Shown here piece after piece: positions 5,073-64,000 of a DNA stretch of 64,000 nt (the first letter of the stretch is position 1; each line of letters begins with the position of its first letter). The translations under genes and the position numbers were made by a program. This stretch comes from Fibrobacter sp. UWR3 (GTDB taxonomy: Bacteria > Fibrobacterota > Fibrobacteria > Fibrobacterales > Fibrobacteraceae). The notes under the pieces were generated by a model. That model worked only from the letters and a program-made list of their open reading frames with translations. It had not been told where the DNA came from and searched no databases. Location of the stretch: positions 186,001-250,000 of the forward strand of contig NZ_FRCW01000005.1 in the NCBI RefSeq assembly GCF_900143055.1. Direction: 5' to 3'.

Positions 5073-5954
5073 CTATAAATCCCCCACACAACGCACGTTC
5101 ATGTAGTTGTCCCAGTTCGGCCCCCAATTAGTCCCGAGAATCGAATTATGGGAATACAGCGACAAGGTTAGCGAACTGTGGTAACCATTGCTGATATCAG
5201 TCCAGAAGACTGTTTCAGTACCAAAATACTCGAAATAGTTACGGCTGCTACTCTTGTAGCCTGCAGGGTATGCATTGAACCCGAGTTCATCGGTCCCCAG
5301 CGGAGCATCTTCCGACTCTTCCCAGTACGATTTCGACTTCAGTACGTACCCGTTGGAAACACCCCCGATAAACTCCACAAGCTTATCGACATCTTCTTCC
5401 GTAGGCAGGCGCATACCGGGAAGGCATACGCTAGAATAATCGTCGTTACCGTATGCGGCATCGTCCCACATGTAATAGCGCCCGCACTTGATTCCCAAAT
5501 CATCGCACTGAGGATTGGTACGGCTATACCGCGTTTCATAATCCAGGTTTTCGGCCATCCAGACCAGGTCGCCCAGGACAATCGCCTTGTACACCTTGTT
5601 GTCGCGCGTGTCGAGAATCTGCACGGACTCGACATTCTTGAACTTTTCATGAAGCGCTACGGCATCATCCGAGGTCTCGTGGACATCAGGCAACTTCTTG
5701 TCGGTAGTGGACTGTCCAAGAGCCACCCAATACCCCTCACTGCAGGCATAGTCATGGCTCGGATAGTAGTTGACATGTACCACCAGGCCTTCGTGCTTGC
5801 TATCGCAGTCCGGAAGGTCTCCTAGTTCATCGGCATTGTACGAGGGAGATGTGCCGGAGTAATCCTTATCGGGGGCGTAACCCACGTCTGCCGAGCACGC
5901 CAGCAAAAAGGACAACGCCACAGGGAACAGTAAGTATGTGTTTTTCTTCATCAC
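5073..5954 (-). CDS. FISUMP-domain lipoprotein
   Basis: 293 residues. Lipobox LLAC lies at about residue 20. A linker carries a short Y-x-C-x4-W motif (DYACSEGYWVAL). The FISUMP domain runs from about 105 to the end with its hallmarks: DxRDNKVYKAIVLGDLVWMA, then ENLDY, CGRYYMWDDA, CLPGMRLPTEEDVDKL, FNAYPAGY, FWTD and a final VRCVGDL. FISUMP domains are numerous on Fibrobacter lipoproteins; their function is not established. The gene begins the packed string 5954 to 1990, and 50 bases separate it from the barrel-like gene at 6005. Confidence 0.9.
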   Translation of the reverse strand: MMKKNTYLLFPVALSFLLACSADVGYAPDKDYSGTSPSYNADELGDLPDCDSKHEGLVVHVNYYPSHDYACSEGYWVALGQSTTDKKLPDVHETSDDAVALHEKFKNVESVQILDTRDNKVYKAIVLGDLVWMAENLDYETRYSRTNPQCDDLGIKCGRYYMWDDAAYGNDDYSSVCLPGMRLPTEEDVDKLVEFIGGVSNGYVLKSKSYWEESEDAPLGTDELGFNAYPAGYKSSSRNYFEYFGTETVFWTDISNGYHSSLTLSLYSHNSILGTNWGPNWDNYMNVRCVGDL

Positions 5955-55781: not shown

Positions 55782-58106
55782 CTACTCCGGGTAGGCGCAG
55801 CAGCGGAAGCCGATGGTCGGGGACTTGTAGAATGCGGCGGCCTCGCGGTAACGCACCTTCTCGCCCGTGAGGAATACCACCTTGACTTCGGAGGGAACGT
55901 ACTTCAGGCCGTTGCCCAGCGTGTCGAGCCACGCGTCGCCACCCTTCTTGTACTCGGAGTACAGCGCGTAGTCCTCGCCGATGGTATTGCCCGAAGAATC
56001 CTGCACGGTAAAGAACTGCAGGCTGTCCGTGAAATCCTTCTGCGAAAGTACCTTGAAGAGCGTGCGCGATGTATCGGCAGCAAACACGGTATCGACCTTC
56101 GAGCCCTCTCGGTACAGGTACACGGAATCGGTCGTGTATGCGGGCCTCGTGAAATACGGGTACGAACGGTTCGTGCACAGCGCAAGCGATTCGCGGTCTA
56201 GCCCGCTATAAATCTTGTAGCTAGAACCCTTCGCTACGGCAACCGTATCTTCGGACCTGCCAATGACCCATTCCTGGTACTGGCCAGGCATGTCGCGCAC
56301 ACCCATCGGGTTCACGCACCGGTAATCGCGCTTCGAGACATCCGCCGCAGAAGCAGAATCGTTCGTGCCCACGTTGCAGTAGCTGAACAGGTATTCGCTC
56401 GCATCTACGTCGAGTTCGTTCAGCACGCCGTACGAAAGCGAACCGCCCGAAAGGCAAACCAGTTCCCAGTCGCGTTCCTTGCACAGGCTGACGGTAAACC
56501 CGCTGGCCGAAACGCCCTCGCACGCGGCAACTGCCTCGGAATGGAGCACGTTGTAGACGAACTCGCCCGAGTCGTTCCTGTGTTCAAACTTCTCCATGCA
56601 GAAACTGGCCGAATCGCCCGTAGAAACAGGCACAAATCCCTCGGGACACTCCATTTCGGACGCAAGTTTGCCGGGAGAAACCGCAATGGTGTCGATAAGC
56701 GCCGTCGAGTAATACCCGGACTTGTCCTTCGCACGGATGCGGAAAATAATCGTATCGCCCGGGGAAACCCAACGGATAGTATCGGTCACAAAAGTTCCCG
56801 TCGCGGACACCGCCATGGTATCGCCATCGACCGCGTAAAGCTTGTTGTAGCGGCCCGAACCGCCCGCATAGCCGTATTCCTTCCACTCCTTCAAGTTCAC
56901 GTCGTAATGTTCCACGACATAGACCGCGACCGTATCGTAACACAGCGTGAACAGGCACGTATCCGGAATCAGCACGACCGTATCGGATTCAATCGGGTGG
57001 TCCACCTTGTAGGGGTCCACTCCCCTGCTCCAGAAAATACGCAGGCGGTTGTTGCTATCGAGCCGTGCCATTCCCGGGAACAGAGAATCTTCCATAAAGT
57101 AGAGGCGCGTAGGCATTACGGGAGCAACGGAATCCGTTGTCAGGAACAGCTGGTTCGTCTCGACCGTAGAAAGGCCTTCCGTTCCCGAGGAATTGCCCAC
57201 GGAATCCCAGGCCGAAATTCCAATCGTGTATTCCGACATGGACTTGAGTCCCTCGATCACCATGCGGAACCGGTTCAGCGAATCGGCATCGAAATCAAAG
57301 CCCTTCCCGTCGGTAATGGAAATGCGCAGGTAGTTCTTCACGTTATCGCCGTGCGAAACGGAATCGAACCACACGGAATCAGAGCTTGCACGAATCCTGG
57401 AATGCCGCGTGTAGTAGGTCGAACCGGTAGAATCCACCCCGTCGGGGCCGGTCAGCGTAATCTTCAGGTCGCGCAGGTCCTCGTCCTTGTCCGAAGACCA
57501 GATAACCACGTTGTAACCGACAATCATCCCCGAAAGGTACATCGGCTTGTAGAAGTTGGTCTGGTCAGTCGGGCGGTACCATTCAAAAAGTGCGCCAGTC
57601 GTCCACACGGAATCGTACACCGTCACCCGCGAAGGCGGAATGTCGTCGCCAAAATGCAGGAACACGCGCTGTACGGAACCCGGATCACCATCGGTGTACT
57701 CGCAGAACAGGGCCACCTGCACGCTATCATACCCCTGGTCCACATAGTCCTTGACCAGCTCAGTCAAGTCAAGCGTATCGTAAACGCGCTCGGTACCCGA
57801 AGAATAGTCTATGGACTTGGTCGCCTTGTCAATCTGCTTCGAAGAAACCGCCTTCGAGGTATCGTCCACGACGGTCGTATCTATCCAAACATGAATGTAG
57901 GCAAAGTCTTCCCTGTCGATGGGCAAACGGTAACGGACGCTAAAACACGCAGAAGTGTCGTTTTCGTCGGCACACCCCTGAATTACGCTCAGTTCCATGA
58001 TTTCGCGGTCAAACAGAAACTCGGTCCCTTCATCCTCGTCGGAACACGACACCGCCAAAATACAGAACGCAAAAAGCAGGAGCAGTCTTGAAAAATACTG
58101 TTTCAT
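55782..58106 (-). CDS. Large lipoprotein with FnIII-like repeats and an FGE/SUMF1-like C-terminus
   Basis: 774 residues from the ATG at 58106, which gives the lipobox LAVSC. Several Fn3-like or immunoglobulin-like beta domains span about 35-500 (IPPSRVTVYDSVWTTGALFE, YTIGISAWDSVGNSSGTEG). The last 250 residues start CPEGFVPVSTGDSASFCMEK and continue with LCKERDWELVCLSG, YRCVNPMGVRDMPGQYQEWV and a final TIGFRCC, a diverged formylglycine-generating-enzyme-like (SUMF1) fold, also the fold class close to C-type lectins. Catalytic cysteines cannot be confirmed by eye. Probably a surface-binding protein. Confidence 0.78.
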   Translation of the reverse strand: MKQYFSRLLLLFAFCILAVSCSDEDEGTEFLFDREIMELSVIQGCADENDTSACFSVRYRLPIDREDFAYIHVWIDTTVVDDTSKAVSSKQIDKATKSIDYSSGTERVYDTLDLTELVKDYVDQGYDSVQVALFCEYTDGDPGSVQRVFLHFGDDIPPSRVTVYDSVWTTGALFEWYRPTDQTNFYKPMYLSGMIVGYNVVIWSSDKDEDLRDLKITLTGPDGVDSTGSTYYTRHSRIRASSDSVWFDSVSHGDNVKNYLRISITDGKGFDFDADSLNRFRMVIEGLKSMSEYTIGISAWDSVGNSSGTEGLSTVETNQLFLTTDSVAPVMPTRLYFMEDSLFPGMARLDSNNRLRIFWSRGVDPYKVDHPIESDTVVLIPDTCLFTLCYDTVAVYVVEHYDVNLKEWKEYGYAGGSGRYNKLYAVDGDTMAVSATGTFVTDTIRWVSPGDTIIFRIRAKDKSGYYSTALIDTIAVSPGKLASEMECPEGFVPVSTGDSASFCMEKFEHRNDSGEFVYNVLHSEAVAACEGVSASGFTVSLCKERDWELVCLSGGSLSYGVLNELDVDASEYLFSYCNVGTNDSASAADVSKRDYRCVNPMGVRDMPGQYQEWVIGRSEDTVAVAKGSSYKIYSGLDRESLALCTNRSYPYFTRPAYTTDSVYLYREGSKVDTVFAADTSRTLFKVLSQKDFTDSLQFFTVQDSSGNTIGEDYALYSEYKKGGDAWLDTLGNGLKYVPSEVKVVFLTGEKVRYREAAAFYKSPTIGFRCCAYPE

Positions 58107-58302
58107 CATATATGAATTTAGCAAAATGCACTTGATGAGCCCCAAAAGCACGCCAAGAAACGCGCCGAAAACCTCCGAAAAAGGGATTTTCACGCATTAT
58201 ATGCAGCCAAAAGAGGTTTTTTGTGGAATAAAGTAAATTTTTTCAGGAAAAATGTACGCTACGTCACAATAAAATGTAAATTAGAGAAAAAAGAGGATGT
58301 TT

Positions 58303-59432: not shown

Positions 59433-60893
<1,461 letters not shown>

Positions 60894-61014: not shown

Positions 61015-61569
61015 TCATTTCCCATTGTAACGTTCCATGCACTTCTCGATGCCGAGCTTGAAGTAGCATTCCACGAGAGCCGGGACCTTTGCAATCGCCT
61101 CTTCAAAGACCGGACGGTCCTCGGGCGAGAACTTCGCCAAGACCCAGTTGGAGAGGTCAAATTTCGGGGGGCACTTGCCCACGCCAAAGCGGATGCGCGG
61201 GAACTTGTCGCCCACATGCTCGATGATGTTCCTAAGCCCGTTCTGGCCACCGTGACTGCCATCCTTGCGGCAACGGATGCGGCCTACGTCCAAATTAATG
61301 TCGTCGCTAAAGACCAGCAGATGGTCGACCTTCACCTTGTACCAGGTCATCAGGGCCTGAACAGCCTCGCCCGAAAGGTTCATGTAGGTCTGCGGCTTTG
61401 CGAGCAGGCATTCCTCGCCCGCTATAGTCACCTTCATGGTGAGCGCCTTGTGTTCGCTCTTCCAGTCCTTGTTCGGGTCGGCAAGCTTTTCAACCGCCAT
61501 AAAACCCGCGTTGTGATGCGTGTTAGAATACTGAGTACCAGGATTTCCAAGACCTACGATAATGTACAT
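61015..61569 (-). CDS. pth: Peptidyl-tRNA hydrolase
   Basis: 184 residues, family length. It frees tRNA from stalled peptidyl-tRNA. Active-site residues: GLGNPGTQYSNTHHNAG (catalytic His in the THHNAG segment), KPQTYMNLSGEAV, and DDINLDVGRIRCRKDGSHGG with Asp and the basic patch. Probably upstream partner of guaB on the same strand. Confidence 0.97.
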   Translation of the reverse strand: MYIIVGLGNPGTQYSNTHHNAGFMAVEKLADPNKDWKSEHKALTMKVTIAGEECLLAKPQTYMNLSGEAVQALMTWYKVKVDHLLVFSDDINLDVGRIRCRKDGSHGGQNGLRNIIEHVGDKFPRIRFGVGKCPPKFDLSNWVLAKFSPEDRPVFEEAIAKVPALVECYFKLGIEKCMERYNGK

Positions 61570-61615: not shown

Positions 61616-62851
61616 TTACTTGTACCTTATGCAGCGGACGGGCAGATAATAGTTTGCTAAATCGTCTTCCGATATCTCGGGTTCATCTTTCGAGATATCG
61701 ACATAATAAATCCAGTCGCGCGACGACCCCTGCGTAGATGTCCAGAATACGGCAAGTTCATTTTCGCCAAAGAACAGTGCAGGCTGGTAGTATGGGCCAT
61801 AACCCGCAATACGGGCCCCGTCGAAATACACCGGAATATAGGGGTCGCTCTTGAAGGCTTCTACAGTGTTACCATAGAAGTCCACTTCCCACTGTTCCAA
61901 TTCGTTTCCCGTAAAATAGGGTGCCTGCGAGAGGTCAATCCCGTCAAAAGACACAAAGGCGTCGTTCCCCGTGTGGGCAGCAAGTGACCATGCATCTGTA
62001 CCAAAGTTGGCGTATGTCATCGTTAGCCACTTGAGCTGGAATACGATCCACCCGCCCGAAGGAATTTCGTTCGCAATCTTTATGGGCAAGTAGTATTGCC
62101 CGTTTTCATCCGGAACATACGAATCGAAACTGACCTGAGATATACCAACCGTATTTCCTTCACCACCGAACAACTGGCTGATGTAACTGACCGGCGTTTC
62201 AATAAACTCATTCCCTAGATAAAAACGAAGGTCCATACCAGAGATAGCGTTCGACTCATTGTTGTGTACTTCTATAAAGAAATCCGCGCAATTAAGCCAG
62301 TCGTAGCCAGGTGCGCAATTATCGGTATTCTGGTAGGCACTCGGCTTGACTTTCACGTCTATCTTGGCATCGTTGCTTTCCGACATGTACGTCGGTATGT
62401 CGACCACCTCGCCTGCACCCACATATTTCACAGAAAAACCTATTGCATCCGTACCTCCGGCATTTTTAGACCTGAGTGCCGAGGGAGTCGCGAAAGAAAA
62501 AAGATCCCTCCATTCCCCTTCATCGGGAACGTGCCAGCCATCCGGGCAGACATCCGAAAGCGGCCATCCGTAGAGGCGACCGTACTTATCGCAGAGTTTC
62601 GGGGAATTGAAGAAACACAGGCTACCCGACTTTGCGTAGCTCAGGTTTTCTGCCATCCACTCCACCTTCCCTACCGATACAGTCTTGTAGGTACGACCAT
62701 CGCGGTAGTCGGTCATTTCACCAGAAACGCCATCTTTTCCGCTGGAATCCTCCGGGCCATACTCGTCCTGAATTTTTTGCGCATAGTCGGTGCAGGCGCA
62801 TAGGGATGCGACTACGAAAACAGAAACTATGACGCCGAAGAGTCTTCTCAT
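61616..62851 (-). CDS. FISUMP lipoprotein split by a CBM3-like insert
   Basis: 411 residues, lipobox LCAC (C20). FISUMP N-terminal part at about 48-144 (DYRDGRTYKTVSVGKVEWMA, YGRLYGWPLSDVCPDGWHVP, DAIGFSVKY). Where the domain normally continues through a Gly-rich loop, about 200 residues intervene (160-354) with features of a family-3 carbohydrate-binding module: FFIEVHNNESNAISGMDLRF, a PSGGWIVFQLKW strand, WSLAAHTG, and PVYFDGARIAGYGP. FISUMP then resumes (ALFFGENELAVFWTSTQGSS) and ends LPVRCIRYK. It starts 16 bases after the next FISUMP gene. Confidence 0.85.
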   Translation of the reverse strand: MRRLFGVIVSVFVVASLCACTDYAQKIQDEYGPEDSSGKDGVSGEMTDYRDGRTYKTVSVGKVEWMAENLSYAKSGSLCFFNSPKLCDKYGRLYGWPLSDVCPDGWHVPDEGEWRDLFSFATPSALRSKNAGGTDAIGFSVKYVGAGEVVDIPTYMSESNDAKIDVKVKPSAYQNTDNCAPGYDWLNCADFFIEVHNNESNAISGMDLRFYLGNEFIETPVSYISQLFGGEGNTVGISQVSFDSYVPDENGQYYLPIKIANEIPSGGWIVFQLKWLTMTYANFGTDAWSLAAHTGNDAFVSFDGIDLSQAPYFTGNELEQWEVDFYGNTVEAFKSDPYIPVYFDGARIAGYGPYYQPALFFGENELAVFWTSTQGSSRDWIYYVDISKDEPEISEDDLANYYLPVRCIRYK

Positions 62852-62867
62852 ATAAAACTTCTATAAT

Positions 62868-64000
62868 CTATTTAGGAATGTATACTTCCTTGACACAACG
62901 GACGCTGTTTCCATCATATGCATCGGCGATGTCACGCACCACAGCGCTGTCGGTGTCAAAGCGAAGATCCATATTATACGCAGCAGAACTGTTCTGCACT
63001 CTGGAGTTACTCCAGAAATATGCTCCCAAGGTTTTATCGGTAAAATCTTGATAATATCCACGGCGACCGGCAGGGAGTGCAGTAAAGCCATAGTCATCAG
63101 TACTGACTGCACCTGCTTCCCAACCCTCCACAGCCTTAAGGCGTGCTCCAGCAACGGCATTCCCACCCGCAAAATCAATCAGCGAATTGAATTCTTCCGG
63201 TGACGGCAAACGCCATTCATCGGGACAAGCCTGTTGTGCCCATGACCACGGATAAAGACGTCCATACCTTTCACAATTTTCATCTTCATAGTCAAAGCAG
63301 AAACTGCCTTCCTGATCGTAATTCAGATTCTCCGCCATCCAGATCAGGGTATCGATGGTTATAGTCCTGTAGGTCTGTCCGTCGCGATCGTCAAAGAGGT
63401 CTTCGCCCGGGTAAAAGACAACAGACGAAGACGAGGATCCCGCGCTACTGGACGAGCTAAAGCCCTCGCCATTCATAATGCAACGGACACTATTTCCATC
63501 GGCAGAATCATAGTTGTCTCGTATCGATACATAGCCAGAGCCATCCATTACTAGATTATATCCAGAAACACCATTTGGCGCTATGGAATTGCTCCAGAAG
63601 AACGCCATTGTACCTTCATGAGCGTAATTACCATCATTGCCCCTAAATCCGCCAAAGAGTGCAGAAAAACCAGAGGAATTTTCGTCGGGAATGAAATAGC
63701 CCCAGTCGGTTTCCTTCCTCAACACAATACCAGCATCATCTCCCACCGTCGCAAGCAGAGTATCAAACTCTTCTGGCGAAGGCAGATGCCAACCATCCGG
63801 ACAAGCTTCCTGTGCAGCAGTCCAAACATAGAGGCGACCGTAATCGACGCAGTAGCGACCTTCGTCGTTATAGCAATAACTGTCCTCCATTTCAAATCTG
63901 AGATTTTCAGCCATCCATGTCTGCGAGCCGATTTCTATAGTCTTATAGGTCCGGCTATCGCGATCGTCAAAGAATTCCCCAAACGAGTATTCAAACGAAC
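62868..64000 (-). CDS. Tandem FISUMP protein, 5' end outside window
   Basis: The frame stays open to the window edge (upstream codons read FFDDRDSRTYKTIEIGSQTW into MAEN), so the start lies beyond 64000. Two complete FISUMP domains, one about 64000-63480 and one about 63390-62870, are joined by a Ser-rich linker (GFSSSSSAGSSSSSVV). Both show WMAENL, YGRLYxW, CPDxWxLPSPEEF, GFxAL and NSVRC. Two-domain FISUMP proteins joined by Ser runs are typical of the lineage. Operon with the 61616 gene. Confidence 0.92.
   Translation of the reverse strand, partial: SFEYSFGEFFDDRDSRTYKTIEIGSQTWMAENLRFEMEDSYCYNDEGRYCVDYGRLYVWTAAQEACPDGWHLPSPEEFDTLLATVGDDAGIVLRKETDWGYFIPDENSSGFSALFGGFRGNDGNYAHEGTMAFFWSNSIAPNGVSGYNLVMDGSGYVSIRDNYDSADGNSVRCIMNGEGFSSSSSAGSSSSSVVFYPGEDLFDDRDGQTYRTITIDTLIWMAENLNYDQEGSFCFDYEDENCERYGRLYPWSWAQQACPDEWRLPSPEEFNSLIDFAGGNAVAGARLKAVEGWEAGAVSTDDYGFTALPAGRRGYYQDFTDKTLGAYFWSNSRVQNSSAAYNMDLRFDTDSAVVRDIADAYDGNSVRCVKEVYIPK

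Follow-up and report, generated by a model that had tools for sequence, protein, structure and literature searches.

A FISUMP lipoprotein gene at 61616-62851 (minus strand) of the window, a 64,000-nucleotide stretch of Fibrobacter sp. UWR3, raises the question of why the FISUMP domain it encodes is interrupted by a large insert and what that insert does. It has long been asked how Fibrobacter grips and breaks down crystalline cellulose in the absence of cellulosomes. The FISUMP family is huge and its role has not gone beyond guesses, these being cellulose binding or cohesin replacement in the accessible text of PMC4704652; that paper and PMC5541161 describe FISUMP (TIGR02145) as putatively cellulose-binding and as possibly analogous to cohesin.

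The 411-aa product of the gene carries the FISUMP motifs above curated cut-offs. TIGR02145 scored 125.7 bits (cut-off 41.65) in two stretches, the best of which paired aa 45-150 with positions 1-123 of the 176-position profile, and PF09603 scored 57.6 against a cut-off of 33.9. The original prediction held that the FISUMP hallmarks stop after GFSVKY and resume about 215 residues later, and this agrees with our count: GFSVKY occupies aa 138-143 and ALFF begins at aa 358, leaving 214 residues between. The same prediction gave about 35 residues for the sister domains of the next gene. Their spacing is indeed shorter, but in both FISUMP domains of the neighbour the motifs stand 17 residues apart (24 when counted from GF to FW) rather than 35, which makes the contrast larger than proposed. 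The insert itself consists of about 197 extra residues, aa 161-357 (61781-62371, minus strand, with evidence from HMM envelope, predicted structure, PDB profile and a GH9 cellulase homolog), placed between the GFSA and FWSS motifs of FISUMP. It separates an N-terminal part of the domain (about aa 45-157, 62381-62719, minus strand, from profile and alignment) from a C-terminal part (aa 358-411, 61616-61780, minus strand, from alignment and HMM).

An alignment and an HMM for comparison with the protein were built from 43 plain FISUMP domains, taken from the window, from loci around the module in named genomes and from viral contigs. In the MAFFT alignment the insert fell in a gap, about 10 residues excepted, and the plain domains covered about aa 45-150 and 359-411. 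The HMM matched the whole protein in two pieces, at positions 2-123 and 122-179 of 180, and upon excision of aa 161-357 in silico these were replaced by a single match over positions 2-179 with 109.8 bits. Excision likewise gave a continuous FISUMP match in the other two nested proteins described below, at positions 2-180 (150.3 bits) in that of genome G029 and at 1-180 (103.2 bits) in the second FISUMP domain of that of G006, so that all three nested proteins behaved alike. The insertion point of the G006 protein lies somewhat earlier than that of the window protein, and no GFSA segment can be recognised there. The module is nested within a FISUMP domain, as had been proposed.

The nesting is not a general property of FISUMP loops. 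The 3.55-Mb genome of the strain contains 141 FISUMP matches, the full-length ones of at most about 696 bp, and among these 141 a module this large was seen only inside the 61616-62851 protein. No insert of comparable size was found in the ten regions that hold most of the FISUMP matches ending short of the profile end; these regions contain mostly divergent FISUMP domains with modest loops. The proposal that inserts are common among FISUMPs was rejected on these grounds. One divergent FISUMP domain (G000:C1:293000-296500) has perhaps 60 extra residues before GVCP, at a different insertion point. A further FISUMP domain lies in the window far from the main locus, at 5076-5633 (minus strand) in a 301-aa frame, and FISUMP-type domains are also encoded by 37 viral contigs (L106-L142). 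A profile search of PDB sequences gave no solved structure related to FISUMP, and phmmer with the whole 411-aa protein against the PDB gave no match. The C-terminal FISUMP part has a weak likeness to the lectin-like Lcl_C/DUF1566 domains (Lcl_C E value of 0.048, and 4.9e-9 in the neighbour gene), and the accessible part of PMC4159848 describes Fib_succ_major and DUF1566 as related, both being targets of DGRs.

The fold of the insert was approached by structure prediction and by profiles. The AlphaFold2 model, which covers the module alone and was built from 61 aligned rows, had a mean pLDDT of 91.9 and a pTM of 0.89, whereas a single-sequence AlphaFold run of the whole protein reached a pLDDT of only 38.4 and was set aside. 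When the module model was compared with the PDB by VIA-align, ranks 1-30 were all CBM3-bearing entries (Z 13.2-10.2, rmsd 2.6-4.8, 131-149 residues aligned), the best being 4jo5 (Z 13.2, 2.8 A, 149 residues), after which the score dropped to Z 7.8. For those entries that are whole GH9 enzymes the matched part is CBM3c according to the titles of some, and we take this to hold for the rest. CBM2-type and integrin-type sandwiches were discarded as the nearest fold because they gave Z values of 7.8 or less, compared with 10.2-13.2. Foldseek placed CBM3 entries in its first seven rows (best 1nbc, E 4.6e-5). A profile of 41 module homologs run against all PDB chain sequences gave six matches at E up to 1, all of them CBM3 chains (1g43 with E 4e-4, 4b9c, 6sl4, 8u49, 2xfg and 2xbt). 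Comparison of the module profile with ten CBM3 sequences by hhalign gave Prob 80 and E about 1e-5; by subset, Prob was 57-71 for the CBM3 a/b set and 14-18 for CBM3c. The insert thus has, in its predicted structure, the CBM3 beta-sandwich fold, in line with the original proposal of a CBM3-like insert, and the GARIAGYGP ending on which that proposal drew is present.

The beta-sandwich of the CBM3 family, as in the CipA CBM3a (1nbc, 4jo5) and the GH9-linked CBM3c (2xfg, 1tf4, 5gxx), is shared over nearly the whole module, and both the WS(L/F/Y) strand and the VYxxGxxIxGxxP ending can also be read in the module sequences. The differences are that the module exceeds a classical CBM3 by about 45 residues (197 compared with about 150) and is nested in another domain rather than joined by a linker. 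It has a stretch of its own before the last hairpin, a conserved FxGxDLxxGP that lies between the WSL strand and that hairpin. Moreover, the contact residues of CBM3a are not clearly kept. The planar aromatic strip through which the CipA CBM3a touches cellulose is made up of W118, R112, D56, H57 and Y67; hhalign placed the W118 region ambiguously in the module, and by motif reading Y280 may sit at W118, a position that is F or Y in 31 of 31 GH9 rows of the genus. At E values up to 10 Pfam did not match the module, nor did PF00942 (CBM_3) match anything in the strain's own genome, although four distant module homologs were seen below its cut-off (E of 0.005 in G047, 0.006 in G044, 0.015 in G049 and 0.8 in G048). 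As no Pfam CBM_3 match rises above the cut-off, we call the module CBM3-type or CBM3-like rather than a member of CBM3; it is a divergent CBM3-type clade.

The closest relatives of the module are parts of GH9 cellulases of about 1,950 aa that are found across Fibrobacter. The strain's own genome encodes one further copy (C9:52608-53207), which shares 52% identity with the insert (E 2e-65). It belongs to a protein of 1,945 aa that has CelD_N ahead of GH9 (171-666), then fn3-type domains (691-867) and the module (about 876-1073). In these giant enzymes the module follows the catalytic and fn3 domains in the chain, whereas here the same module is nested in a non-catalytic lipoprotein. A single-protein query found relatives in 38 of 60 related genomes at E up to 0.001, a profile query in 42 of the 60 at E up to 0.01 and, across the phylum, in 107 of 167 genomes; no relative was found in the viral contigs. 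Matches above 120 bits in the phylum numbered 88. The frames that hold them measure 901-2483 aa in 84 cases and 406-690 aa in the other four, the window protein (a 414-aa frame) being among the short ones. Pfam detected GH9 in all five of the long module proteins examined; three belong to the main kind, the other two to an upstream kind. The module being common to GH9 cellulases genus-wide, the link from FISUMP to carbohydrate is strengthened.

The upstream kind belongs to a second, more divergent CBM3-like module, which in several Fibrobacter genomes lies in a GH9 protein of about 2,150 aa encoded just upstream of the main one (L062:3826-4479 plus 16 similar places in loci L064-L102, giving 17 partial matches, with the CBM3-like motifs GDWSW and NPYITVYRKGEFIWGYSP). 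The adjacent GH9 genes form a tandem pair of giants, each with a CBM3-like module. A stand-alone divergent CBM3-like module is also carried, at the C-terminal end, by short lipoproteins with Ser-rich linkers in G005, G010 and G151, and similarly in G008 (starting at L154:1530, L155:1881, L156:1723 and L157:1849, plus strand), none annotated by Pfam CBM_3 above the cut-off. Since these lipoproteins carry such a module alone, its lipoprotein display is a repeated theme.

The window protein itself has a lipoprotein-type start. Read by eye, a signal peptide with a lipobox-like L-C-A-C (aa 1-22, Cys20; 62786-62851, minus strand) runs MRRLFGVIVSVFVVASLCAC followed by TDY, the Cys at -2 being atypical. 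The CTDY after the lipobox is common to the window protein and those of G029, G006 and G144, and the lipobox endings in G006 and G144 read LLTAC and FAAC. We infer that the lipoprotein is displayed on the outer surface. Sixteen bp upstream lies a multi-FISUMP gene (62868-63998, minus strand) that runs off the window and has a 656-aa frame in the genome; the two genes keep their order in G029 and are probably cotranscribed. Downstream are genes named by sequence reading as peptidyl-tRNA hydrolase-like (pth, 61015-61569, minus strand), a conserved neighbour in G029, and IMP dehydrogenase-like (guaB, 59433-60890, minus strand), a neighbour also in G006. The lipoprotein start and the multi-FISUMP neighbour are features shared with other FISUMP lipoproteins (TIGR02145, PF09603) of Fibrobacter.

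Among 80 genomes of the genus (the strain's own and 79 others) four contain a FISUMP-linked copy, three nested and one in tandem. The G029 protein (G029:C5) is a syntenic ortholog, 55% identical, beside pth and with the same FISUMP neighbour gene. That of G006 (G006:C42) has 687 aa and two FISUMP domains with the module in the second, and guaB is near. In the 428-aa protein of G144 (G144:C35; L153:5052-6335, plus strand) the FISUMP domain is followed by the module in tandem. The G144 tandem gene and the nested gene of G006 have in common an upstream gene of the AKFVAVLET family. A maximum-likelihood tree built from 42 modules placed the four FISUMP-linked copies in a single clade (100/98) within the GH9 modules of Fibrobacter, with starred clades (12, 15 and 27 rows) surrounding it or lying further out. 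The G144 copy was sister to the three nested copies (nested group 95/74); the FISUMP-linked copies had long branches, that of G006 being very long. FISUMP-linked and GH9 modules are of common descent. Because the four copies form one clade inside the GH9 modules, a FISUMP lipoprotein took over the module from a GH9 gene, probably just once, a single capture being the simplest history.

Conservation was scored on the 28 columns that are conserved to 90% or more among 38 GH9 modules. Of these, 17 are shared by all four FISUMP-linked copies (K169, P170, F191, N197, Y211, Y254, G267, W288, S289, F302, G304, D306, L307, Y338, G345, G350 and P353), indicating that the fold has been kept. The last hairpin differs. 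In all 31 GH9 rows of the genus the H344 position holds H, the H347 position H or Y and the Y349 position Y or F, whereas in the FISUMP-linked copies H344 has become D/N/M/R, H347 R/R/L/R and Y349 A/A/A/S. With these three residues changed, the ligand face may have altered, or a contact with the enzyme may have been given up.

We think it reasonably probable that the FISUMP lipoprotein took its CBM3-type module from the genus's own giant GH9 cellulase and works at the surface as a non-catalytic adhesin for the plant wall. The module would have moved from the giant cellulase into the FISUMP loop between GFSA and FWSS, where the FISUMP domain would provide a compact platform. There it would bind a plant cell-wall polysaccharide, cellulose most likely, and the lipoprotein would help to hold the cell to the fibre. 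Such an adhesin would suggest a plant-fibre-gripping role for the FISUMP family. Counting against this are the changes at H344, H347 and Y349, the missing Pfam CBM_3 match and the rarity of the arrangement (three nested and one tandem copy in 80 genomes of the genus). Some CBM3s, namely CBM3c, are known not to bind cellulose by themselves. A module that retains the CBM3 fold and GH9 descent yet has lost polysaccharide binding, and now acts as a spacer or in protein-protein contact, for example in an outer-membrane complex, is a distinctly less probable account that we nevertheless take seriously: it would explain the loss of the three hairpin residues and the long FISUMP-linked branches, and it would suit the cohesin analogy put forward for FISUMP in the available sections of PMC4704652. 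However, the columns kept in all four copies, W288, F302, G304, D306 and L307 among them, argue against such a loss, as do the frames that remain intact in independent genomes.

The altered hairpin could instead set a different specificity, the module binding a carbohydrate other than cellulose such as hemicellulose, pectin or a surface glycan of the cell itself or of other bacteria. The module family's own FxGxDLxxGP stretch would fit this as well, but the close kinship to modules of GH9 enzymes, a cellulase family, makes it rather improbable. That the insert is an ordinary FISUMP loop that resembles CBM3 by chance, or the product of a mis-joined contig, we regard as very improbable. Although the Pfam matches are confined to FISUMP pieces and a weak one to Lcl_C, three genomes show this nesting, the G029 gene also sharing the neighbours on either side, the CBM3 fold is confidently predicted and the FISUMP match becomes continuous once the module is cut out. 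The adhesin of GH9 origin remains the reading we prefer.

The result bears on more than the 61616-62851 gene in that a divergent CBM3 clade occurs in a genus whose species F. succinogenes is reported to lack cellulases with CBM1, 2 or 3: according to the accessible part of PMC3079729, none of the 31 cellulases in the S85 genome has one. The same part lists Fisuc_0393 and 0394, with consecutive numbers, as GH9 genes. Fisuc_0393 appears in the available sections of PMC4619616 as a 233-kDa protein that one proteome detected solely in cellulose treatments and labelled CBM1, GH9, and in those of PMC4668043 as an outer-membrane protein that binds carbohydrate and had been found before. From gene order and the 233-kDa size, Fisuc_0393/0394 are probably the S85 counterparts of the tandem giant GH9 pair. 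The accessible portions of PMC6851124, PMC6204037 and PMC6291624 make no mention of CBM3 in these giant GH9 enzymes, and in the limited open-access literature searched we came across no account of a Fibrobacter cellulase with CBM3 or of a FISUMP protein with any CBM. The nested arrangement of this divergent CBM3-type clade is new insofar as that literature contained no earlier description.

As for expression, one FISUMP protein was present in the S85 membrane proteome on cellulose only (accessible part of PMC4619616), which favours the adhesin. Of 49 putative lipoproteins, 40 had lower levels on cellulose (accessible part of PMC6851124), which speaks against a simple rule of lipoprotein induction for adhesion. 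More tentatively, an unrecognised CBM3 clade of the Fibrobacterota, spread over giant GH9 cellulases, Ser-linker lipoproteins (in a paralogous form) and the FISUMP lipoprotein, might be the missing grip on crystalline cellulose, with FISUMP as a surface display fold for such modules. The presence of a CBM3-type module in both the GH9 giants and a FISUMP lipoprotein offers a concrete and cheap binding test for the enzymes and the FISUMP family alike. Elsewhere in the window, 55782-58193 (minus strand) encodes an 803-aa lipoprotein-like protein that has fn3-like repeats and whose C-terminal stretch looks, by eye, like domains of the sulfatase-modifying-factor type.
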